A DNA stretch of 64,000 nucleotides. Source: Bacillota bacterium (GTDB taxonomy: Bacteria > Bacillota > Limnochordia > Limnochordales > DUMU01). The notes under the pieces were generated by a model. It did no database searches and was not told the origin of the DNA. It saw nothing but the letters and a program-made list of their open reading frames with translations. Shown piece by piece: positions 2,450-17,116 of the stretch. The DNA lies in the NCBI GenBank assembly GCA_012839805.1, contig DUMU01000007.1, positions 142,374 through 206,373 of the forward strand, in the 5' to 3' direction. Position 1 is the first letter of the stretch. Every line of letters begins with the position of its first letter. The translations under genes were made by a program, and so were the position numbers.

Positions 2450-3514
2450 TCAGACCGGCGTGTAGACCGGCTCGTAGGCCGGGGTGCGATCTACCTCGAC
2501 GGGTACGCCTTCGGCCCGGGCCGAGCGCAGGAGGTCGAAGACCATCTTGGCATCGCCGTACTCCATCTCCGGGGTGACACTGATCGGCTCTTCGCCCACC
2601 GCGGCCTTCCAGAAGTTCAGGAATTCGTTGTAGTAGCCGCGGCGGGGACGGTAAGGAATCATCTCATGCCGCCCGTCCTTATAGAAGAGGTTGATCACTG
2701 CGCAGTCGCGATCCTCCAAGTAGATCTGGCCGCCGGTACAGAAGATTCGCAGCCCGATCAGGGGGCGTTGGACCTCGACTCCCCGGACAAAGAAGGAATA
2801 CTGGCCCAGCACGCCGGAGAAGAAACGGATGTTGGCCTGGAGGACGACAAAGGGAGCGAAGTCCTCCTGCTGGGGGCGGCCGAAGGCGCTGACCGTACGA
2901 ACGGCTCCGAAGATGTGCCGGATGGCAGCCATATGGTGAACGCCGGTATCCAGAAAGACGCCGCCGGTGAACTCCGGGTGTTGCCGCCACTCCCGGTGAG
3001 CCCAGCCATCCGGACCGGCCATCAGCTGGGGGAAGTCTACCGTCTCATTCCAAATGAAATAGACCGGATCGCCCATCCGGCGGGTGCGGACGAGGTCCCG
3101 CAACAGGTTGATCTCTTCGTTGTAACGCCAGTTTTCCGCGATCAGGATGGGCACGCCCGCCTGCTTGGCCAGGTCGCGATGGGCGGCCGCCTCTTCGAGA
3201 CTCCCGCCCAGGGGCTTTTCGCATATTATGGGTTTTTTAGCCTGAGCCACCTGGCGGGTGACACTGTAGTTGGCTTCGATGGGGACGATGATGTCGAAGG
3301 CGTCTAAATCGGCAAGCCCCAGCATCGGGCGCAGGTCGGTGAAGATGCGGTCTGGCCCGAGCCCGAGGCGCTTGCCCCACTCCTCGGCCTTGACCCGGTC
3401 CACATCGCAAACTGCGCCGATCTTGAACTTATCCCCGAGCTCCTGCAAGGCCGGCAGGTGCAGGCGCTCGAAAGCCAGGCCGGTTCCCACTATCCCCAGG
3501 CGGATCTGCTTCAC
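2450..3514 (-). CDS. Gfo/Idh/MocA family NAD(P)-dependent oxidoreductase
   Basis: The 354-residue protein begins with a Rossmann fold (GIVGTGLAFERLHLPAL, residues 6-22), continues with the family's EKPLGG motif near residue 97 that holds the catalytic lysine, and has the GGVFLDTGVHH segment near residue 185 with the usual D and HH of the sugar-binding site. Members oxidise or reduce sugars, inositols or related polyols; the exact substrate cannot be read here. The start is GTG with AGGGTG seven bases upstream. A perfect palindrome lies about 30 bases upstream of the start. Its location between a secreted glycosidase-like protein and a secreted phosphoesterase suggests a role in using a polymer breakdown product. 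Confidence 0.88.
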   Translation of the reverse strand: MKQIRLGIVGTGLAFERLHLPALQELGDKFKIGAVCDVDRVKAEEWGKRLGLGPDRIFTDLRPMLGLADLDAFDIIVPIEANYSVTRQVAQAKKPIICEKPLGGSLEEAAAHRDLAKQAGVPILIAENWRYNEEINLLRDLVRTRRMGDPVYFIWNETVDFPQLMAGPDGWAHREWRQHPEFTGGVFLDTGVHHMAAIRHIFGAVRTVSAFGRPQQEDFAPFVVLQANIRFFSGVLGQYSFFVRGVEVQRPLIGLRIFCTGGQIYLEDRDCAVINLFYKDGRHEMIPYRPRRGYYNEFLNFWKAAVGEEPISVTPEMEYGDAKMVFDLLRSARAEGVPVEVDRTPAYEPVYTPV

Positions 3515-3731: not shown

Positions 3732-6308
3732 ATGAGACCGGCGACACCGCGCCTGCGCCTTGGCCCGCGCCTGCGTGCACGCCTGGGCCTACGCTGGCGT
3801 CCCCACTGGCGCCGCTTGCGGGCGCGCTCCCGCGCCGCCCTGCTCTTAAGTCTGATCTCCCTGGTGGTAGCTGCCGGCCTCGGCTGGGGGCTCCTCATTG
3901 CCTGGAACGGGCACGAGGCCGATCCAACCACGGGGGGTCAGAGTACTGGGGCGGAGTCCGTACCCCAGCCTGCGCCTTCCGCTCCCCGGGATTCGACCCT
4001 TCCTGCTCCGGGTTTATTCAGGTTCGCCGTTCTGTCGGACACCCACCAGAAGGCGGAGGAAACGAACGTTCCGGCGACCTGGCTCTGGCAGGAGGTGGCC
4101 GGTGGCTCGCCTCCGTTCGCCTTCGCGGTCAATACGGGAGATGTGACCAACACGGGAGACCCGGCGGAGTTCATGGCTTACCGCCTGGCCGGGAGCCAGA
4201 GGGTCAGCGTACTCTACCACGTCCCCGGGAATCACGATTTCCGCTGGTCGGCGTGGGGACGGTCCCTTTGGAGGCAACACTTTGGTAACGTGCCCTGGTC
4301 TTTCGATACCGGCGGAGTGCACTTTGTGGGTCTCGACTCCACCCAGTTGCTGCAGGAACCCGGGCATTTCGGCCGCCGCCAGCTGGAGTGGTTGGCCGGC
4401 GATCTGCGACGGGTCGGCCCCGAGACCCCGGTGGTCCTCTTCTTCCACCACCCGGTTGGGGGTGATTTCTGGTACGTCGATGATCAGGACCGGCTGTTCG
4501 AGGTGCTGGCCCCCTACAACGTGCGGGCGATCTTCGCCGGGCACGTCCACCGCCAGATGTCCTTCTACCAGAACGGCATCGCCGTCATTACCGTGCCTTC
4601 CGCCCGTGACGGTGGGAATTACCTGTCCGTTCAGGTTACGGCTGAACCGCCTGCCTTGCGAGTAAGCGAGCAGTTCAACGGGGGAAACAGCCGGGAGATC
4701 ATTACCGTACCTTTGGAGGGTAAGCGGCCGGGGGTTCCCGTAACCGATATCCAAGTTACGGAGGACGGTACGGTTCTAGCTACCGTGGCCGGGCGGGCGA
4801 GCCGGGTGGAGTACCTGATCGACCTCCCCGAGTATAGTGCGACCCGGCGGGGAGAATGGCAGCCGTTCAGCCCGGGAAAGCCGGAAGGAGTGTGGGCGGC
4901 CAGACTTCCGGCCCTTGCTCCCGGCCGGCATCTGGTGCAGGTGCGGAGCACCGATACCGAGGGGGCGCAGTGGACGAGGGCCGCCGCAGTCTACGTGGAA
5001 GGGGTAACCTTCAAGCAACTGAGTACGGAGGAGGTGCGAGAGACAGGGGAGGGAGCGGGGGGATTGCCGGAACACCCGGTGGGCCGGCTGGTTTGGGAGA
5101 GACAGCTGGGGGAGGCCATCCAGGGCGGGATAGCGGTGGATGAGGCCCGGGGCCTGGTGGTGGCGGCCACCACGGGGGGCGAGGTCTGGGCGGTGCGGAT
5201 GGCCGACGGTGCGCCGGTCTGGCAAATTGACCTTGATCGCGACGGGGTCATCAGTACCCCGGTGATCGATTCCGGCCGGGGTCTGGTCTATGTGGGAACG
5301 GCGGACGGGTGGTTTTACGCTCTGGATGAAGCTACGGGCATGACTCGCTGGCGGGTCGGTGGGAAGCCGGTGCTCGGCACGCCGCTTCTCGTGGAGGCGG
5401 CAGCAGCCCCCGAGGAGACCGGTGAAAGAGCGGCCGTTGAGGCGGGCGGTGCAACGGTCTTACTGCTGGTTCCGGCAGGGAATGTTCTTTATGGTTTCGA
5501 TCCGGCCACCGGAGAAGAGCGGTGGAAGTTTGTCACCGGAGGGCTGATCGGAGGCCGGCCGGCGGTGGATCGGGCGGCGGGTACGGTTTACGTCGCCGCG
5601 GGAGACGGTTTCGTCTATGCGTTGCGGGCGGAAGACGGTGCTCTGCGGTGGCGTCAATCCGTCGGGAAAGGCCTGCTTTACGGCCCGTGGGCCAGCTGGC
5701 TGGCGGTGGTCCCGGCAGGGGCGGGCAGGCCCGATGAGAGCCGTCTGATTGTTTCCACGGTCCGTGGAGTCTATGGACTCGACCCCTTCACCGGCCGCGA
5801 GCTCTGGCAGGTGGGTGGAGGTTTCGCCTTCTCGGCACCGCTTCTATGGCAAGATGCCGAAGGTCGGCCGCATCTGGTCATGGCCGACGAATGGGGTTGG
5901 ACGGTGGACATCGACCCCGATTGGGGCAGCCTCAACTGGCGTACGCCCATGGGCGAACGCATTTTCAACTCGTCGCCGCGTTCCGTTCACCCAGACGGAA
6001 CCGGTTCCGAGCAAGGACTGATCTACGTGGCAGGTGTGCTCGGAACCCTCTTTTGTCTGGACGCTCACAGCGGAATCATCAAAGAGCTCTTTCACCTGAC
6101 CGCGGGCCGCTACGTCTATTCCTCGCCGGTCATCGCAGAAGTGATAGAGGAGGTAGAAGCTCCTACCACCCCGGTAAGTCCCACGGGGCAGGTACGGCGG
6201 GCTATCCTCTTTATTGGCGGGCAGGACGGGATCTTGCGGGCTATTCAAATCGGGGCGCCCTTGGCAACTCTTGACAGCACCCTTGAAGTTCCAAATAATA
6301 GTGGATAG
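3732..6308 (+). CDS. Membrane-anchored metallophosphoesterase fused to a PQQ-type beta-propeller
   Basis: This 858-residue protein starts with an Arg-rich cytoplasmic tail and one membrane segment (about 36-58). A calcineurin-like phosphoesterase domain follows: LSDTH (about 100), NTGDV (134), GNHDF (165), FFHHP (237) and AGHVHRQ (269) supply the usual metal ligands. After an Ig-like linker (about 335-425), residues about 455-850 are WD/PQQ-like repeats (RGLVYVGTADGWFYALD, GTVYVAAGDGFVYALR), about six or seven blades. The active domains should lie outside the membrane. The propeller may bind a ligand or partner; no quinoprotein dehydrogenase function is implied. The start is ATG. The combination in one chain is unusual. 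Confidence 0.85.
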   Translation: MRPATPRLRLGPRLRARLGLRWRPHWRRLRARSRAALLLSLISLVVAAGLGWGLLIAWNGHEADPTTGGQSTGAESVPQPAPSAPRDSTLPAPGLFRFAVLSDTHQKAEETNVPATWLWQEVAGGSPPFAFAVNTGDVTNTGDPAEFMAYRLAGSQRVSVLYHVPGNHDFRWSAWGRSLWRQHFGNVPWSFDTGGVHFVGLDSTQLLQEPGHFGRRQLEWLAGDLRRVGPETPVVLFFHHPVGGDFWYVDDQDRLFEVLAPYNVRAIFAGHVHRQMSFYQNGIAVITVPSARDGGNYLSVQVTAEPPALRVSEQFNGGNSREIITVPLEGKRPGVPVTDIQVTEDGTVLATVAGRASRVEYLIDLPEYSATRRGEWQPFSPGKPEGVWAARLPALAPGRHLVQVRSTDTEGAQWTRAAAVYVEGVTFKQLSTEEVRETGEGAGGLPEHPVGRLVWERQLGEAIQGGIAVDEARGLVVAATTGGEVWAVRMADGAPVWQIDLDRDGVISTPVIDSGRGLVYVGTADGWFYALDEATGMTRWRVGGKPVLGTPLLVEAAAAPEETGERAAVEAGGATVLLLVPAGNVLYGFDPATGEERWKFVTGGLIGGRPAVDRAAGTVYVAAGDGFVYALRAEDGALRWRQSVGKGLLYGPWASWLAVVPAGAGRPDESRLIVSTVRGVYGLDPFTGRELWQVGGGFAFSAPLLWQDAEGRPHLVMADEWGWTVDIDPDWGSLNWRTPMGERIFNSSPRSVHPDGTGSEQGLIYVAGVLGTLFCLDAHSGIIKELFHLTAGRYVYSSPVIAEVIEEVEAPTTPVSPTGQVRRAILFIGGQDGILRAIQIGAPLATLDSTLEVPNNSG

Positions 6309-9800: not shown

Positions 9801-11836
9801 CGGAACTTGAGCCGCCCGCCCCACCTGCTGCCGTTTCCGACGACGAAACGACCGGGGTCGACCACCGGCGCTTAGCTGCGTATGCCCTGACCCGCGGTCC
9901 CTTTACTTTGATGGAAGCCGCTGTCGACCTCGCCGGATCGCCGGACGTCGTACCCGGCGCCGGCTCCACCGGTGGAGGAGAGCGAGAAACAGCCCTTGCC
10001 CGGCTACGCCGGGCCATCGACTCCCTGCTGGCCACGGGGGAACTGGTAGCCGGGCGTTTCCGCACTACCTCCTCGGAAGAGGAGTACTGCCAGGTGGACT
10101 TCCTGCGCCAGTGGCTGCGCCGGACTCTCATCGCCCGGCGCCGGCGGGTATCCACGGTCCCCTTCGGGGTTTACCTGGCGTTTCTCTTCCGGCGTCACCT
10201 GCCGGTGGCAGGTCACCACTCGGAGCCGGCACCCCCCTACTCTGCCGCCCTCTCCCGCCGTCTTGGGGAAGCCATCCGGGCTCTCGCGGGCCTGCCGTTC
10301 AGCTGGGAGACCTGGGTGGAAAAGCTCTTGCCACCCCGGCTGGGCGCCGGGCCCGGAGCAGAAGTCATCCTGGAGGCCCTGGCCGAACTGACCCGTTCCG
10401 GGAGGCTTTTCTGGCAGGCAGCGGGGAATGAAGGCGACCCGCCCTCCATTCGCTTCTTCACCCCCGGTTTCCCGGCGATCCGCCGCGGGGCGGTCGGCAC
10501 GGCGCCGCCGGCCGGCGAGCCTGACCGGCCGGTTCCGCCTGGCCTGCCTGACGAGCCCGGCCCGTCGGGTGAACTGGTCGAGGGAGTGCTGCGGGAACGG
10601 GGAGCGCTTTTCCTGCACCAAATCGACGCGGAAGTGGCCCGGCGCGGGTATTCGCTCTCCCGGGAGGAAGTAGTGGCGGCGCTGGTGCAGCTGGCATGCC
10701 AGGGGCGAGTCACCTCCGACAGCCCTCGTCTCCTGCCGCTCTTGCCGCTCTTGGCCCGCGAGGCCGAGCACGCCGGGCGATCTCGGCTTGCCCCGGACGC
10801 GATTGAGAAGGCCGGCGCGCGGCCGGAGTCGCCGGCAGTGCCCGTAGTCCGCCTCGGCGGCCCGGGCCGCACGCCCCGGACCCGGCGGCTGTACCGGGAG
10901 GCCCGGCGGCGGGCCCGGGAGACGGTTTGGCGGCGGATGCATCCGGGCGCAGCCCGGCGGGGTTCTCCTGGCGCGGCTCTTTCCGAGGCGGTTGCCGACG
11001 GGCGCTGGTGGGCTTTGGATTCGTCGACGGCGGCCGCCACGGTCACGCCGGGCGAAGCGGCCGTCATGATCATGCCAGGCGGAACGGCTGCCGACCCCCT
11101 CGAGATGGTCTTCTGGCGATGGACGGAAACTGTCCTTGACCTTTACCATGTCTTGAGCCCAAGCATTTGGAACACCTGGCGTCGGCTGGCCTCCGGTGGC
11201 GACCAGCCCGACCCGTCTTTACCCTCCTGGTCTGAACTTTACTCGTACCTGCGACGCTGGGAGTGGCAGGGGAGACTGTGGCGGGGACGCTTCGTAGAGG
11301 AGCTCGATGATCCGCAATTCACCGGGGCCGCTGAGGCAATCAACCCGTTCGAGGGGACGACGGCAAGCATCGGGCCGGCCCGCTTCTTCTGGCTTTCCGC
11401 CCGCGACCCCTTAAACCCCTATGGCCGCCTGGCGAACTGGCCGCACCACCAACCCCTTTCCGCGGAGAGCTGGCTTTTGTGGCGCCTTGCCGGTCAACCG
11501 GCGGCGGGCGGCGGTGAAGCCGGCAGCCGTAGAGCTGCGGTCGGCCAGGCCGAACTCCTGCTACTCTATTCGGCATCGAGCGGCCTTCTTCAGGTCGAAC
11601 CCGCCTTTGAACGGCTTTCTGCCGCCGATCGGGTAGAGGGCTGCCGGCAGTTCACCTGGTTACTTACTTGTGAACCGCTCGCCCGGCGCACCCACCGCCT
11701 CGAAGTGAACTCCTGCCAGTTCTCTCCCGCCTCGCCGGCCCGGCCCATTTGGGGGACTCCCGTGGAGCAGGATCTCCGGGCGGCCGGTTTTCGTTCCTCC
11801 ACCCGGGGACTGGTTTTGATGGCTTCCTCCGGCTGA
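6887..11836 (+). CDS. lhr: Lhr family DEAD/DEAH-box ATP-dependent helicase (full length)
   Basis: The 1649-residue protein opens with an SF2 helicase core: PTPPQEQGWP (Q motif), APTGSGKT (about 47-54, Walker A), SPLRALDND, TTPESL, VDELHAL (about 172, motif II), SATQRP (motif III), and the second RecA domain ending SVTRGLQRIGRAGH (about 375-392). The Lhr-specific winged-helix and beta-domain follow to about 870, then a long C-terminal region with further winged helices, as in bacterial Lhr with C-terminal domain (about 1500 residues). Lhr is a 3'-to-5' ATP-dependent helicase linked to DNA repair. Low-complexity Gly/Ala/Pro/Arg linkers near 920-945 and 1205-1225 add length. The ATG has GGAG upstream. 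Confidence 0.93.
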   Translation: MVNGEKRGWRFHPLVEEWWKEHFAAPTPPQEQGWPAVQRGENVLIVAPTGSGKTLAGFLAFVDFLVKERTGGKPSGPGVRVVYVSPLRALDNDVHANLTPALSEINARAEKTIARWRPLRAAVRTGDTPAHERRRQARQPPDFLITTPESLFLLLASPRARSILRTVAAVIVDELHALAPNKRGAQLALALEWLEWWAGRPLQRVGLSATQRPLSRMAAFLGGDRPVTVVDTGLRKEMRLRVLLPAPDLRSFPEGSVWPSLYRRLYGLIVGDAAPDGRGEEPGRRRPASTLVFVNSRAQAEKVTARLNEIASKSEKAAGVAFPAASHHGSLSRAVREQVEKEFKRGRIPVVVATGSLELGIDVGTVDLAVQVESPHSVTRGLQRIGRAGHLYGAESRGVILPKTRADLLEAAVTARAVLSGDIEPVRLPHAPLDVLAQTVAAMVALDDWRSEELYRLVRRAGPYRELTQQAFHTVLRLLAGEYRHPLLAGPGTSPGTGRLRPRLLWDHASDMLHGLPGTRLLVARQGGTIPDRGTYGVYTVKDRRHLGELDEEFVYETRRGDVILLGTTACRVERLEKDRVLVEPLSEGVSRAGGAYEGTGERLPVRGVPLVRLPFWRGEGVGRTSHLGLLIARFLRQVNRQLDGQFNRARKGRTAGGGAEARAAAVQALAAGLKEQFPLDDEAASALAGYLVEEYHQLGCLPSDRCVVVEHFPDVNGDPLILIHAPFGRSFNRAWKLALGDALAERWGVEPQILASDDGLLLRLPAGIGPGFGGRSDDLPAFLISLVRAVGPEQVVGRVLRALKGSALLGAAFRAAAGRALLISRGGRGRRLPLWLQRLQAQDLLEATRHFPDFPVLVEAIREVTEEVLDLPLLRAVLYGISRGRVAVVPHVSRLPSPFAAGLLFDYAGAFVYEGDEPRRSGGEGTTSRTAGTYAGPAGPDEAGWLLATVALAGGDLRHRLDQEILAQLVAELEPPAPPAAVSDDETTGVDHRRLAAYALTRGPFTLMEAAVDLAGSPDVVPGAGSTGGGERETALARLRRAIDSLLATGELVAGRFRTTSSEEEYCQVDFLRQWLRRTLIARRRRVSTVPFGVYLAFLFRRHLPVAGHHSEPAPPYSAALSRRLGEAIRALAGLPFSWETWVEKLLPPRLGAGPGAEVILEALAELTRSGRLFWQAAGNEGDPPSIRFFTPGFPAIRRGAVGTAPPAGEPDRPVPPGLPDEPGPSGELVEGVLRERGALFLHQIDAEVARRGYSLSREEVVAALVQLACQGRVTSDSPRLLPLLPLLAREAEHAGRSRLAPDAIEKAGARPESPAVPVVRLGGPGRTPRTRRLYREARRRARETVWRRMHPGAARRGSPGAALSEAVADGRWWALDSSTAAATVTPGEAAVMIMPGGTAADPLEMVFWRWTETVLDLYHVLSPSIWNTWRRLASGGDQPDPSLPSWSELYSYLRRWEWQGRLWRGRFVEELDDPQFTGAAEAINPFEGTTASIGPARFFWLSARDPLNPYGRLANWPHHQPLSAESWLLWRLAGQPAAGGGEAGSRRAAVGQAELLLLYSASSGLLQVEPAFERLSAADRVEGCRQFTWLLTCEPLARRTHRLEVNSCQFSPASPARPIWGTPVEQDLRAAGFRSSTRGLVLMASSG

Positions 11837-11862
11837 TAGGCACGGGATTAGAGCGGGGCTCG

Positions 11863-11891
11863 TTGACAAAGACTGGTAGAGCACATAGAAT
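11863..11891 (+). promoter_or_regulatory. Sigma-A promoter for metG
   Basis: TTGACA (11863-11868) and TAGAAT (11886-11891) are separated by 17 bp, a near-consensus housekeeping promoter. Transcription would start near 11898, about 15 bases before the metG ATG, leaving no room for a T-box leader. Confidence 0.75.
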
Positions 11892-11913
11892 TAGAGCCAC
11901 ATGCAGCAGGGAG

Positions 11914-13995
11914 ATGGGGAGTTTGGCCAAGTTTTTCCTGACTACCGCGATCGACTACGTCAACGCCGAACCACACCTCGGCCATGCCTACGAGAAGATC
12001 GCGGCCGACGTGATCGCACGGTTTCACCGGCTGGCGGGTGACGATACCTTCTTTCTCACCGGGACGGACGAGCACAGCCTCAACGTGGCTCGGCGGGCCC
12101 AAGAGGAAGGCCTGACGCCGAAGGAGTTCTGTGACCGGATGGTAGCCGCATTCCAGCGGGCGTGGGAGGTACTGGACATCCGGTACGACCGGTTCATTCG
12201 TACGACCGATGAAGATCACGTGGCCACGGTGCAGGAGATCGTCCGGCGCATCAACGAGCATGGGTACATTTACCAGGGCACGTATGCAGGATGGTATTGC
12301 GTCTCGTGCGAGAAGTTCTTAAACGAAAGCGACCTGGTGGAAGGCCGCTGCCCGTTACACCCGACCCGCAAGGTGGAATGGGTCGAGGAGCCCAACTATT
12401 ACTTCGCTCTCTCCAAGTTTCAAGAGCGATTGCTGGAGCACATAGAAAAACATCCGGAGTTCGTACGGCCAGAGTCGCGGCGGAATGAAGTGTTGAACCG
12501 GATCCGGGAGGGGCTGCAGGACATCAGTATCAGCCGCTCTACGGTGGACTGGGGCATACCGCTTCCCATCGATCCCAACCAGGTGGTCTACGTCTGGTTC
12601 GATGCCCTGATCAATTACGTTTCCGGGGCGGGGTTCGGGGGCGGCCAAGGGGAGAAAAGCGGGAAGTTCAACTACTGGTGGCCGGCCGACCTCCACATTG
12701 TGGGCAAGGACATCACATGGTTCCACTGTGTGATTTGGCCGGCGATTCTGATGGCGGCCGGGCTTCCTTTGCCGCGGACGGTATTCGGGCATGGGTTCAT
12801 CAATGTACAGGGAATGCGCCTGAGCAAATCGGCGGGGGTGGTGGTCGATCCCATACGTTTGGCCGAGGAGTATGGCTCGGACGCGGTCCGCTACTACTTG
12901 ATGAGGGAGTTTTCTTTTGGCAAGGACGGCGACTTCAGTATCGCCGGGCTCCGGGATAGATACAACGCGGACCTGGCCAACGACCTCGGTAACCTCCTCA
13001 ACCGTACCCTGGCGATGATCGACCGCTTCCTGGGCGGGGTCGTGTCCAGGCCGATCGAGTCCGCGCCGGTAGGCGGGGCAGCGGGGGTGGCAGAGGCACC
13101 GGGACCGCCAGGAACGGTAGCCGCGGCAGGTATGCTCCCGCAGCCGGACGGTGCCGGTGATGAACGCGATCGAGCTCTACGCCGGACGGTTCGCGAGGCG
13201 GTGGCCAACTACCGGCAGCGGATGGAAGCCCTGGAGCTTTCCGAAGCTTTGGAGGCGGTGTGGGCCGTCATTGACGACGCCAACAAATACATCGACGAAA
13301 AGGCACCCTGGGATCTCGCCAAAAGCCGTGAGCGCCGGGGCGAACTGGAGCTTGTAATGTACCAGTTGGCCGAGACCTTGCGCGTGGTGGCGATCCTGGT
13401 CAGCCCCTTCATCCCCAAGGCGGCGGTGGGGATCTGGCAGCAACTGGGGCTGGCCGGGGCGCCGGCGGAGGCGGGCCTCAGGAGCTGCGAGGAGTGGGGC
13501 GGATTCCCCGGCGGAATCCGGGTTCGTCGGGGAGCGCCGCTCTTCCCGCGGCTTGAAGAAGAGAAGGAGACCGGCCGCGCCGGGGGCACCGACGGTGAGG
13601 CGGGCCAGGCGGGCACGGCGGTCGAGGCGGGCGAAGCAGGCACCGCGGGCGAGGCGGGGGAAGCCGGGCTCATCACCATCGAGCAGTTCGCCCAGGTCGA
13701 GATCCGGGTAGCCCGGGTACTGGCAGCAGAGAAAGTGGCGGGGGCGGACAAACTCCTTCGCCTTGACATCGATGTGGGCGGGGAAAAAAGGCAGATCGTC
13801 GCCGGGATCGCGAAGTATTACACTCCGGAGGAGCTGGTCGACAAAGAGATCGTGGTGGTGGCCAACCTGAAGCCGGCCAAGCTCCGGGGATTATTATCCC
13901 AGGGCATGCTGCTCGCAGCAACCTCCCCCGACGGGAAGAGCCTTGCCCTGATCACGCCGGAGCGGCCGGTGGGAGCGGGAGCTAAGGTCAAGTGA
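11914..13995 (+). CDS. metG: Methionyl-tRNA synthetase with C-terminal tRNA-binding domain
   Basis: MetG charges tRNA-Met with methionine in the cytoplasm. The class I signatures are present: HLGH (about residue 20) and RLSKS (about 301, the KMSKS equivalent). The zinc knuckle is CVSC...CPLH (about 129-150), a Cys3His variant. The anticodon-binding helical domain follows, then a Gly/Ala/Glu-rich repetitive linker (about 545-585), and a Trbp111-type OB-fold domain from ITIEQFAQVEIRV (about 587) to the end. The ATG is chosen because the family begins a few residues before the FFLTTAIDYVN segment and because the promoter lies just upstream. The stop overlaps the next gene as GTGA. Confidence 0.95.
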   Translation: MGSLAKFFLTTAIDYVNAEPHLGHAYEKIAADVIARFHRLAGDDTFFLTGTDEHSLNVARRAQEEGLTPKEFCDRMVAAFQRAWEVLDIRYDRFIRTTDEDHVATVQEIVRRINEHGYIYQGTYAGWYCVSCEKFLNESDLVEGRCPLHPTRKVEWVEEPNYYFALSKFQERLLEHIEKHPEFVRPESRRNEVLNRIREGLQDISISRSTVDWGIPLPIDPNQVVYVWFDALINYVSGAGFGGGQGEKSGKFNYWWPADLHIVGKDITWFHCVIWPAILMAAGLPLPRTVFGHGFINVQGMRLSKSAGVVVDPIRLAEEYGSDAVRYYLMREFSFGKDGDFSIAGLRDRYNADLANDLGNLLNRTLAMIDRFLGGVVSRPIESAPVGGAAGVAEAPGPPGTVAAAGMLPQPDGAGDERDRALRRTVREAVANYRQRMEALELSEALEAVWAVIDDANKYIDEKAPWDLAKSRERRGELELVMYQLAETLRVVAILVSPFIPKAAVGIWQQLGLAGAPAEAGLRSCEEWGGFPGGIRVRRGAPLFPRLEEEKETGRAGGTDGEAGQAGTAVEAGEAGTAGEAGEAGLITIEQFAQVEIRVARVLAAEKVAGADKLLRLDIDVGGEKRQIVAGIAKYYTPEELVDKEIVVVANLKPAKLRGLLSQGMLLAATSPDGKSLALITPERPVGAGAKVK

Positions 13996-15107
13996 AGCAC
14001 AAAAAGAAGCTCCAGGAACTGGCTGCTTTTCACGGGCATCTGGGTCCGTATCTGGTGCTGGGCTATCGCATGGGTGAGCACGCGCTTTCGCTGCTGGATG
14101 CAGGATGCCCTCCCCCGGGTGCTCTACCCTCGGCAAAGGGGCTCAAAGTCACCGCGTACAGCGGCCATCGCCCTCCCATCTCCTGTTTGGCCGATGGCTT
14201 GCAGCTGTCTACGGGCTGTACGGTCGGCAACGGGCAGCTCACGGTAATCGCAGGAGACGGTGCGGGCCAGGGCCGGCCGGAGGCTTCTTTCGCATGCCGG
14301 GCGAAGCGAATCCGTCTTGGTGTAAAGCCGGCAGTGGTTGAGGCTATCGCGGAGGTATCGGCCAAAGCGGATCGGCAAGGCTTGGAGTCCCTGGCCCAAC
14401 GGTTATGGGAGATGCCGGTGGAGTCCCTGTTCATCATTACTCACGAGCCCGGGTCGGATGCGCCGGTGGTAACGGCCGGGCGGCCAAGGGTGCTGGTGCT
14501 GGGCGGCGAGATCACCGCCTACCACGACTTTAGCCAAATGGGCCCGATAATGCGGGCATTTCTGTCGGACCAGGGTTATGCCGTAGAACTGACCGAGAAC
14601 CGGGACGCCCTGCAGGAAGAGAACCTCAGGGAGTACGACGCCCTCGTCCTCTATACCACTCACGGCCGGCTCACTCCGGAACAGGTCGGCGGCCTGCTCG
14701 CCTTCGTGGCGAGGGGAAAGGGGATCGTGGCCCTGCACGGTGCTCTCGTTTCTTTCCAGGAGAATCACGAATATATGGCACTGCTAGGTGCACGATTCCT
14801 ATCCCATCCGCCTATTCAGGATTTCGAGGTGACGGTCGCAGATGCCGATCACCCCATAACTCGTGGCCTGAGTGACTTCACGATCCGGGACGAGCTTTAC
14901 CTGCTCACTTATGAACCTCAGTCTCTGCACGTTTTGCTGCAATCGAGCTGGGAGGGGCAGGCAGTGCCGGTTGCGTGGGTGCGGAGTTTCGGCCGAGGAC
15001 GGGTTGCCGTTCTATCCCTCGGACATGGGCCGGAAGCTCACCGGCATCCGGTTTTCCGGCAGCTGGTCGGCCGGGCCGTGGCCTGGTCGGCGGGGATTCC
15101 GGGGTAG
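13992..15107 (+). CDS. FmdE-like domain fused to ThuA-like domain
   Basis: Residues about 1-150 resemble the FmdE family (formylmethanofuran dehydrogenase subunit E region): FHGHLGPYLVLGYRMG (13-28), then Cys65 and Cys76 in the C-x-D-x-x-Q-x-x-x-G-C pattern. The C-terminal zinc ribbon of some FmdE proteins is missing. Residues about 163-371 are a ThuA-like, glutamine-amidotransferase-type fold: VLVLGGE, YDALVLYTTHG, GKGIVALHGAL, HPITRGLSDF and a final GRGRVAVLSLGHG. The GTG start overlaps the metG stop by four bases, so it is probably translationally coupled. FmdE-like proteins bind metal or molybdopterin-related enzymes; ThuA proteins are linked to sugar use. A function for the fusion cannot be stated. 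Confidence 0.8.
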   Translation: MKHKKKLQELAAFHGHLGPYLVLGYRMGEHALSLLDAGCPPPGALPSAKGLKVTAYSGHRPPISCLADGLQLSTGCTVGNGQLTVIAGDGAGQGRPEASFACRAKRIRLGVKPAVVEAIAEVSAKADRQGLESLAQRLWEMPVESLFIITHEPGSDAPVVTAGRPRVLVLGGEITAYHDFSQMGPIMRAFLSDQGYAVELTENRDALQEENLREYDALVLYTTHGRLTPEQVGGLLAFVARGKGIVALHGALVSFQENHEYMALLGARFLSHPPIQDFEVTVADADHPITRGLSDFTIRDELYLLTYEPQSLHVLLQSSWEGQAVPVAWVRSFGRGRVAVLSLGHGPEAHRHPVFRQLVGRAVAWSAGIPG

Positions 15108-15178
15108 CCGCTGGAGGACGTGTGAGCCCCGATGCGCTTCGACATTTAAATGAGAAACGCTGGGGGAGGCAGGCAGCG

Positions 15179-15667
15179 ATGGACATGACGAGCCAGGGAG
15201 TCTCACGGCGGCTTTACCGCAAACGGAACGGAGCGATGCTGGGGGGAGTAGGAGCGGGGCTCGCGGAGTATTTTCAGCTGGACGTATCGCTGGTACGCCT
15301 GATTCTCATAGCCATCGGCGTTATGACGGGGCCGGCCGGGGTGATCGGATACATCATTGCCTGGGTCGTGATACCGGAAGAGCCCGCGAGTGTGCCTGCA
15401 CCACCAGCGGTAGAACCGGCTGCCCCACCCGCCGGGCCGGGACCGCTTACCGGCGAAGTGGTGGACGAGGGGGCTAGTAATCGGACGGAGACCCGCGAGC
15501 CCGAGCGGCGGCGCGAACTGCTGGGATGGCTCCTGGTTCTGGTCGGAGGCTGGGCGTTGCTCGGACGGATCTGGCCCTGGTTCAGCTGGGCGTACTTCTG
15601 GCCCCTCGTACTCATCGCGGGCGGCATCGTGCTGCTGGTGCGAAGCCGGGGAGGCATCGACCGGTGA
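15179..15667 (+). CDS. PspC domain membrane protein with LiaF-like C-terminal region
   Basis: The 162-residue protein has an N-terminal PspC domain (RRLYRKRNGAMLGGVGAGLAEYF, with its membrane segment at about 38-65), a Pro/Ala linker, and a C-terminal pair of membrane segments (LLGWLLVLVGGWALLGRIW and YFWPLVLIAGGIVLLV) like the DUF5668/LiaI-LiaF toast-rack transmembrane region. PspC proteins sense or answer envelope stress. The ATG at 15179 has GGGGGAGG nine bases upstream; the longer open frame upstream lacks a family match. It stands alone between the FmdE-ThuA gene and the sugar-binding protein. Confidence 0.85.
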   Translation: MDMTSQGVSRRLYRKRNGAMLGGVGAGLAEYFQLDVSLVRLILIAIGVMTGPAGVIGYIIAWVVIPEEPASVPAPPAVEPAAPPAGPGPLTGEVVDEGASNRTETREPERRRELLGWLLVLVGGWALLGRIWPWFSWAYFWPLVLIAGGIVLLVRSRGGIDR

Positions 15668-15787
15668 GGGTCGAGCAGCGCCGCCCGAGCCCGGCATACT
15701 GCGCGCGGGCAGGGGTTGGGCATTTGGAGGGATTCACCCCTTCATCCCGAACGTAGGGGTGGAAGACACCACATCGATAGGGGGGCA

Positions 15788-17116
15788 ATGTCCATGCATG
15801 TCCTCGGAGCGCGCGGGGGAGTCGTCCGGTTGGGCTGGCTTTGGATGGGACTCGTGCTGGCGGGGGCAAGCTGCTCCCTAACGGCCGGCGCAGGGGCAGC
15901 TGCCGGTTCACCGGTTACCATTCGGTACATGTACTGGGGCGGGGAGAACGAGCAGAGCGCAGTCAATGAGCTGATCCGCCGGTTTGAAGCCGCCAATCCC
16001 GGCATCCAGGTGAAGCCGGAGAATACTCCCTATCCGGAGTACGGAGACAAGATTCCGATCCTGCTGGCTTCCGGCGCCGGGCCGGACGTGATCATGCTGC
16101 CGCCCTACCTCTTGCCTTCTTTGGCGGCAGCGGGGGCGCTGGCTCCCCTCGATGAATTCATAGCCCGGGACACCTCTTTCCGGCTTGACGATTTCGTGGT
16201 GCCGGCCCGGTCGATCTTCCGGGTCGACGGCCGGCTCTATGCGCTGCCGCGGGAGTTTGGGCCCTACGTTCTCTTTTACAACCGGACGATGTTCACGCAA
16301 AAAGGGTTGACGGAGCCGGATGCCAGCTGGACCTGGGAGACTATGGTGGCGGCCGGTCACAAGCTGACCGAAGACCGGGACGGTGACGGCCAAATGGATC
16401 GCTACGCGCTGGGGGGCGTGGGCTGGATCAACCACTACCTTCCTTTCGTGTGGCAGGCCGGGGGAGAGGTGGTGGAGGCAAAGACGCGGCAGGTGCTGAT
16501 CGACAGCCCTGCCAGCGTCCGGGGACTCCAGTTCTATGCTGACCTGATGCTAAAAGAGCGGATCAACCCAACCTACGACGAGTTGCTACGAGGCCGGGTG
16601 AACATCGAAGAGTGGTTCGCCAGCGACCGCCTGGCCATGTCTTATAACTCGCGTATCGCGGTGGGGTTCTACAACCAGTTCAAGGACCTGGACTATGATG
16701 TGGCTCTGCTACCGAAAGGTCCGGTCTCCCGGGCGATGCTGGTCGACCCGGCCGCGATCGCCATCGTGGCGGGGACCCGGCAACCGGAGGCAGCCTGGCG
16801 GTTCTTCAAATGGCTGGTAGGGCCGGAGGCGGCCCGGTTGATGAGCACCCGCAACCTCCTGGTTCCGGCGCTGCTTTCGGTGGTCCGTTCCGAAGCCTTC
16901 GTCAATCCCGACGTCCCGCCCCGTCATGATCTGGTTTTCGTCGAAGCCATGCAGTACGGGCGTACGGTTCCGCTAATCCCGGAGTGGAACGAGGTCTCGG
17001 GGGTGATCGGCCAGGGGATGTTGCCGGTCTTGCGGGGGCAGGCCGGGGCGGCCCAGGCTACGACCCAGATGGCGAGCAGGATCAAGCAGATCTTGAGCCG
17101 GCCGGTGCGAAAGTGA
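15788..17116 (+). CDS. ABC transporter extracellular sugar-binding protein (family 1)
   Basis: A 442-residue secreted protein. A hydrophobic signal region ends in LAGASC near residue 23, so it may be a lipoprotein although the lipobox is imperfect. The mature part matches family 1 solute-binding proteins: VTIRYMYWGG, FEAANPGIQVK, LLASGAGPDVIML, and the AAWRFFKWLVGPEA segment near the C-terminus. These proteins deliver oligosaccharides to MalF/MalG-type permeases. No permease or ATPase gene lies nearby, so it must use components encoded elsewhere or serve as a sensor. The ATG follows a purine-rich GGGGGG site. The GH1 beta-glucosidase two genes downstream fits a role in glucoside use. Confidence 0.88.
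   Translation: MSMHVLGARGGVVRLGWLWMGLVLAGASCSLTAGAGAAAGSPVTIRYMYWGGENEQSAVNELIRRFEAANPGIQVKPENTPYPEYGDKIPILLASGAGPDVIMLPPYLLPSLAAAGALAPLDEFIARDTSFRLDDFVVPARSIFRVDGRLYALPREFGPYVLFYNRTMFTQKGLTEPDASWTWETMVAAGHKLTEDRDGDGQMDRYALGGVGWINHYLPFVWQAGGEVVEAKTRQVLIDSPASVRGLQFYADLMLKERINPTYDELLRGRVNIEEWFASDRLAMSYNSRIAVGFYNQFKDLDYDVALLPKGPVSRAMLVDPAAIAIVAGTRQPEAAWRFFKWLVGPEAARLMSTRNLLVPALLSVVRSEAFVNPDVPPRHDLVFVEAMQYGRTVPLIPEWNEVSGVIGQGMLPVLRGQAGAAQATTQMASRIKQILSRPVRK

Follow-up and report, generated by a model that had tools for sequence, protein, structure and literature searches.

A predicted FmdE–ThuA fusion protein, an apparently new combination of two known domain families, encoded behind metG in a Limnochordales genome

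In a 64,000-nucleotide stretch of DNA from a Bacillota bacterium of the order Limnochordales (contig DUMU01000007.1; hereafter the window), an FmdE domain and a ThuA domain are predicted to occur in one protein, whose gene (13992..15107, forward strand) begins inside the stop codon of the methionyl-tRNA synthetase gene metG. This locus raises the question of whether both domains are genuine parts of a single protein, whether the arrangement is as unusual as it appears, and what an FmdE domain might contribute to a protein of the ThuA type.

The gene is a single uninterrupted open reading frame with a GTG start that encodes 371 amino acids. Its N-terminal FmdE core domain (Pfam PF02663; 14028..14432, residues 13–147) carries H14, H16, C65, D68, Q71, C76 and T77, and an interdomain linker of 18 residues (14433..14486, residues 148–165) leads into the ThuA domain (PF06283; 14487..15086, residues 166–365) with its conserved H178, H249, H272, E301 and H345. 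Both matches lie well above the Pfam gathering cut-offs (FmdE: 68.7 bits, E 6.5e-19, cut-off 22.9; ThuA: 151 bits, E 7.2e-44, cut-off 33.4), and on these scores neither is a chance match; together with the unbroken frame, this bears out the original prediction of an in-frame fusion of the two domains. A weak additional match to DUF4350 falls inside the ThuA part (32 bits, cut-off 30.4), and none of the NCBIfam profiles scores above cut-off on the fusion protein. Among solved sequences, the FmdE half comes closest to 2gvi (E 2.7e-5), with weak similarity to 3d00 (E 0.014) and 2glz (E 0.44), the last of which we take to be the structure of the core-only FmdE protein B8FYU2_DESHY; the nearest to the ThuA half is 4jqs (E 3.6e-4).

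The GTG start call agrees with the homologues, as the 12 residues that precede the Phe of FHGHLGP equal the number found in the standalone FmdE ORFs of two loci (L027 and L028). At the other end of the linker, RVLVLG (residues 166–171) has its counterpart in RVLILG (residues 7–12) in the standalone ThuA protein of a sister genome from the same genus (G001), suggesting that the ThuA domain was joined almost at its native N-terminus. The C-terminal zinc finger known from FmdE proteins is absent, residue 147 being followed by the linker and the ThuA domain; it is not required for membership of the FmdE family, as core-only members also lack it. GC3 ranges from 0.54 to 0.86 along the ORF in 50-codon windows, with 0.68 in the FmdE part, and gives no sign that the FmdE half is compositionally foreign. 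An Rfam scan of 11500–16000 gave no match, no sigma-70-like site was detected in 13700–15900, and a search for leader, promoter and terminator signals yielded two terminator-like sites against 1.4 in shuffled sequences. A single-sequence AlphaFold2 model of the fusion had a mean pLDDT of 36.7, and was on this account considered worthless and not used for a fold search.

The FmdE half was aligned with ten distinct relatives from genome loci, after its own copies and near-duplicates had been dropped. H14, H16, C65, D68, Q71, T74, C76 and T77 are invariant in all 11 rows (query included), and the two cysteines singled out by the original prediction are thus conserved throughout. In B8FYU2_DESHY the metal ligands are His15, His17, Cys19 and Cys55, and Asp58, Gln61 and Thr67 are the residues at the dimer axis (Axelrod et al., PMC2954224). 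Mapped by motif and spacing, these correspond to H14, H16, G18, C65, D68, Q71 and T77 of the query. Hence the fusion resembles this core-only protein in its FHGH motif, in the Cys55 equivalent, in the dimer-axis equivalents (D68, Q71 and T77, present in 11/11 rows) and in having no zinc finger, but differs from it in being fused to ThuA and in that one of the four metal ligands is replaced, with Gly18 in the place of Cys19. The same Cys to Gly change (HGHLG) is seen in 8/11 rows, namely the query and seven of the ten relatives, and the nearest standalone FmdE relatives likewise lack the equivalent of the Cys19 ligand. As one ligand is a glycine, metal binding by the FmdE half may be lost or different; Q2LQ23_SYNAS is described as lacking two of the ligands, such that the site is not universal in the family (PMC2954224). 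Beside the GCT motif the query has N80 where 9/11 rows have Lys, and Q82 where 9/11 have Asn. In the ThuA alignment (38 rows including the query) H249, H272 and E301 are found in 38/38 rows, and H178, Y303 and H345 in 37/38. Apart from the Cys to Gly replacement in FmdE, the conserved residues of both domains are kept.

The start codon of the fusion (GTG, 13992–13994) overlaps the stop codon of metG (TGA, 13993–13995) in the GTGA at 13992..13995, which is read from the sequence just as originally predicted. The accompanying claim that expression is tied to metG is not supported as a lasting or a special link. The metG gene spans 11749..13995 (forward strand) as the longest ORF, although its real start is probably nearer to 11914, from where the comparison was made. 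In G001 the standalone ThuA gene (L029:11476–12126, 216 aa) has its own ATG, 158 bp after the metG stop codon. The region downstream of metG was also taken from eight further genomes of the order, and the next gene, scanned in three of them, codes for a TatD DNase in each; in two (L095 and L099) tatD has a GTG start and overlaps metG by four bases, and in the third (L098) the two genes are 3 bases apart. This indicates that a GTGA-type overlap behind metG is ordinary in the order, and we regard the overlap seen here as weak evidence of linkage. In G002, a member of the same family, lhr and metG are present, the ORFs after metG lie on the other strand and a PF06283 search found no ThuA match. 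Across 14 genomes of the order, PF06283 is over cut-off only in the fusion's own genome (G000) and in G001, with one sub-cut-off match each in G000, G001 and G012. The next gene downstream of the fusion, which overlaps it as the longest ORF, encodes a PspC-domain protein (14975..15667, forward strand; PspC domain at residues 78–136) and is syntenic in the sister.

The explanation that we favour, with a probability of roughly 0.4 for the whole, is that of a ThuA-type sugar enzyme to which a dimerising, probably metal-binding FmdE core has been added. It would be a single protein with an N-terminal core-only FmdE, a short linker and a C-terminal ThuA, the domains being intact as judged by sequence. 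The ThuA half might be a sugar-catabolism enzyme of the ThuA/ThuB kind, acting in 3-keto-glycoside metabolism: thuAB are reported to make the 3-keto derivatives of trehalose and maltitol (PMC6515357), and a like reaction on maltose was inferred for a Paenibacillus operon by its authors (PMC4765114). The FmdE half would make the protein dimeric, as are three FmdE proteins by crystal interface and light scattering, two of which have a metal in the core domain (PMC2954224), and it might offer a metal/thiol site (H14, H16, C65 and perhaps C76) beside the sugar site. The gene would be read in an lhr–metG–FmdE::ThuA–pspC run, where coupling to metG would set its level and not its chemistry. The dimer, the metal, the sugar substrate and the cooperation of the halves are the elements that we infer here. 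Action on a sugar or cofactor with a putative metal-binding FmdE module, as first suggested for this gene, is plausible. A point against an enzymatic role is that ThuA-like folds can serve as binding modules too: the N-terminal domain of Agd3, examined as a carbohydrate-binding module, is described as resembling 4jqs without the conserved surface residues of the latter (PMC7229062). A ThuA-like arrangement is also reported for a dimethylformamidase domain (PMC7686228).

The fusion shares a complete ThuA domain, with the conserved His and Glu residues, with the ThuA family and the ThuA–ThuB systems, but its partner is FmdE instead of a Gfo/Idh/MocA dehydrogenase, and no thuB gene is adjacent. 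In this the fusion also differs from a 560-aa ORF (L061:4654-6336) in which Pfam identifies ThuA together with a Gfo/Idh/MocA dehydrogenase domain, apparently as a ThuA–ThuB fusion; a second 560-aa ORF (L036:1510-3192) is probably the same fusion, judging by ORF length and a ThuA match only. A candidate ThuB-like partner in the window is the Gfo/Idh/MocA oxidoreductase gene at 2450..3514 (reverse strand), which is 82% identical and syntenic in the sister. It lies about 10 kb from the fusion on the other strand, and a phosphoesterase gene, lhr and metG separate the two. Its orthologues occur in G004 and G007 (52–54%) and partially in G002 (63%), which are genomes with no ThuA match, whereas in G372, G204 and G335 the orthologue and ThuA are on separate contigs; the pairing of ThuA with this dehydrogenase was consequently kept as weak. 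No metabolic gene in the fusion's own run fixes the substrate. The intervening gene (3732-6308, forward strand), between the Gfo/Idh/MocA gene and lhr, combines a calcineurin-like phosphoesterase with a PQQ-type beta-propeller and has no match in the sister stretch (L029). The genome of the fusion also contains a second, divergent ThuA gene on a separate contig (C26:48534–49184, L122:1495-2235; 127 bits), with no counterpart over cut-off in G001. It adjoins carB-like and nitroreductase-like ORFs (names read from the sequence).

Searches with the full-length query found both halves spanned only in its own genome, among 60 relatives (matches in 32) as well as among 398 genomes from its phylum (matches in 65). 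No match extended across both halves in 52 genomes from the phylum to which a SAR324 locus belongs (matches in 13) or in 296 from that of a Streptomyces locus (matches in 59), and a search of genome contigs, restricted to close relatives, gave two loci with one half each. None of 152 plasmid records covered 80% of the query, and a plasmid search with the FmdE half gave no record; one phage record matched the ThuA half only, and no viral contig matched. The searched genome sets share members, and a distant fusion whose halves both match weakly could escape detection in them. The FmdE part alone has matches in 6 of 72 genomes of the class, its own included, and in none of 12 other members of the order (G002–G013), the fusion being its own genome's only PF02663 match; across the phylum PF02663 is present in at least 148 of the 398 genomes. 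Among the PF02663 matches listed, five have open frames of more than 300 codons, and one of these (L075), when scanned with Pfam, proved to be a TrmO_N–FmdE protein with a zinc-finger match below cut-off. Other FmdE fusions are in print, with PF00994 and with UPF0066 (PMC2954224), and in archaea with a tRNA methyltransferase domain or a transcriptional regulator (PMC11237513). The TrmO_N–FmdE–zinc-finger proteins (L075; in PMC2954224 as UPF0066; PMC11237513) thus likewise have FmdE within a multidomain protein, but in them FmdE is joined to a tRNA-methyltransferase domain, which in L075 is N-terminal, whereas here it is joined to a C-terminal ThuA and there is no zinc finger. A search of the open-access literature for both terms found no published FmdE–ThuA fusion, and within that literature and the genomes searched the fusion is neither common nor already described. 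It looks young and rare, and by its domain matches is a new combination of two known families.

A match to both halves in just one genome of the searched sets is also what would be expected from a near-neutral accident, in which an FmdE gene came to lie after metG and its stop codon disappeared, the domains remaining independent or FmdE acting as an expression or dimerisation tag. The standalone FmdE genes point in the same direction. Core-only FmdE genes follow the gene of an ECF-transporter S component at L027 and L028 (by Pfam) and L031 (by similar sequence), and a cysE-like gene, so named from a reading of the sequence, at L056–L059; none of these seven loci contains ThuA, and no common theme between the standalone contexts and ThuA was found. 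However, the invariant FmdE residues are present and there are no stops or frameshifts, suggesting selection on the FmdE half, and we hold such an accident to be quite conceivable but doubtful. In three genomes of a single genus there is a four-base overlap between the ECF S-component gene and the core-only FmdE gene (L027:6363-7309, L028:7602-8554, L031:4066-5012); the two are a possible functional pair, and an open-access literature search found no publication linking FmdE with an ECF transporter.

The history of the locus can be viewed against G001, where a Gfo/Idh/MocA gene on the opposite strand is followed by lhr, metG, thuA and pspC, which is the order of the window minus FmdE and minus the gene at 3732–6308. 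Synteny with the sister extends over the Gfo/Idh/MocA gene, lhr, metG, the ThuA part and pspC, which makes a mis-assembly unlikely. The standalone ThuA of the sister occupies the same metG–pspC slot and is 54.5–56% identical to the ThuA half, depending on method, but lacks an FmdE half and is set apart from metG. The DNA similarity between the two ends at the metG stop codon and restarts at about 14490 (residue 167), indicating that the FmdE segment occupies the position of the sister's 158-bp gap. Compared with the sister, the ThuA half shows purifying selection (dN 0.40, dS 2.8, with dS saturated), and it diverges faster than metG (dN 0.15) and Gfo (dN 0.13). A profile search of G001 gave 0 matches to PF02663, and a decayed FmdE in the metG–thuA gap was considered and rejected, as tblastn with the FmdE part gave chance matches (best E 0.49). 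Since the sister has only the ThuA half at this locus, the FmdE segment was either added in this lineage alone or lost by the sister, a polarity that rests on two genomes. Upstream of the Gfo/Idh/MocA gene, G001 also has a CRISPR-like array (L029:541-2900) with 37 repeat copies, a repeat core of about 30 nt by eye and spacings of 65–68 nt among those listed; ORF translations across it are artefacts.

Loss would mean that the ancestor of the genus already had the fusion, or an adjacent fmdE, and that deletion of the FmdE half left the 158-bp gap. This accords with the length of the gap beside an otherwise shared metG, and with its opening in the same GTGA, from whose GTG a frame runs in phase with thuA though two stop codons close it ahead of the thuA ATG. 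An in-phase reading nevertheless has a one-in-three chance, the gap retains no FmdE similarity and the 12 other genomes of the order gave no FmdE match, making such a loss rather unlikely; being a matter of history only, it is compatible with an added FmdE core on a ThuA-type enzyme.

A regulatory or metal-sensing role of FmdE, serving the ThuA half or metG, would agree with the regulatory role suggested for the archaeal FmdE fusions (PMC11237513) and with the metal sensing named among the possible roles of FmdE (PMC2954224). Given that the C-terminal zinc finger, on which the proposal as set out in PMC2954224 is based, is absent here and that one metal ligand is missing, we consider this improbable. 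Sequential action of the metal/thiol site of FmdE and the sugar site of ThuA on one substrate, for example with an acyl or formyl intermediate, which the ThuA half would release, bound to an FmdE cysteine, seems very improbable, though if true it would provide the first definable chemistry for the FmdE family.

The fusion by itself proves no function. FmdE is common, yet it has no settled function in those parts of the cited literature that treat it. Its apparently young, in-frame joining to a domain whose metabolic setting is known, along with a congener that has the ThuA gene at the same locus and no FmdE match, would constitute a natural pair for studying the contribution of FmdE.
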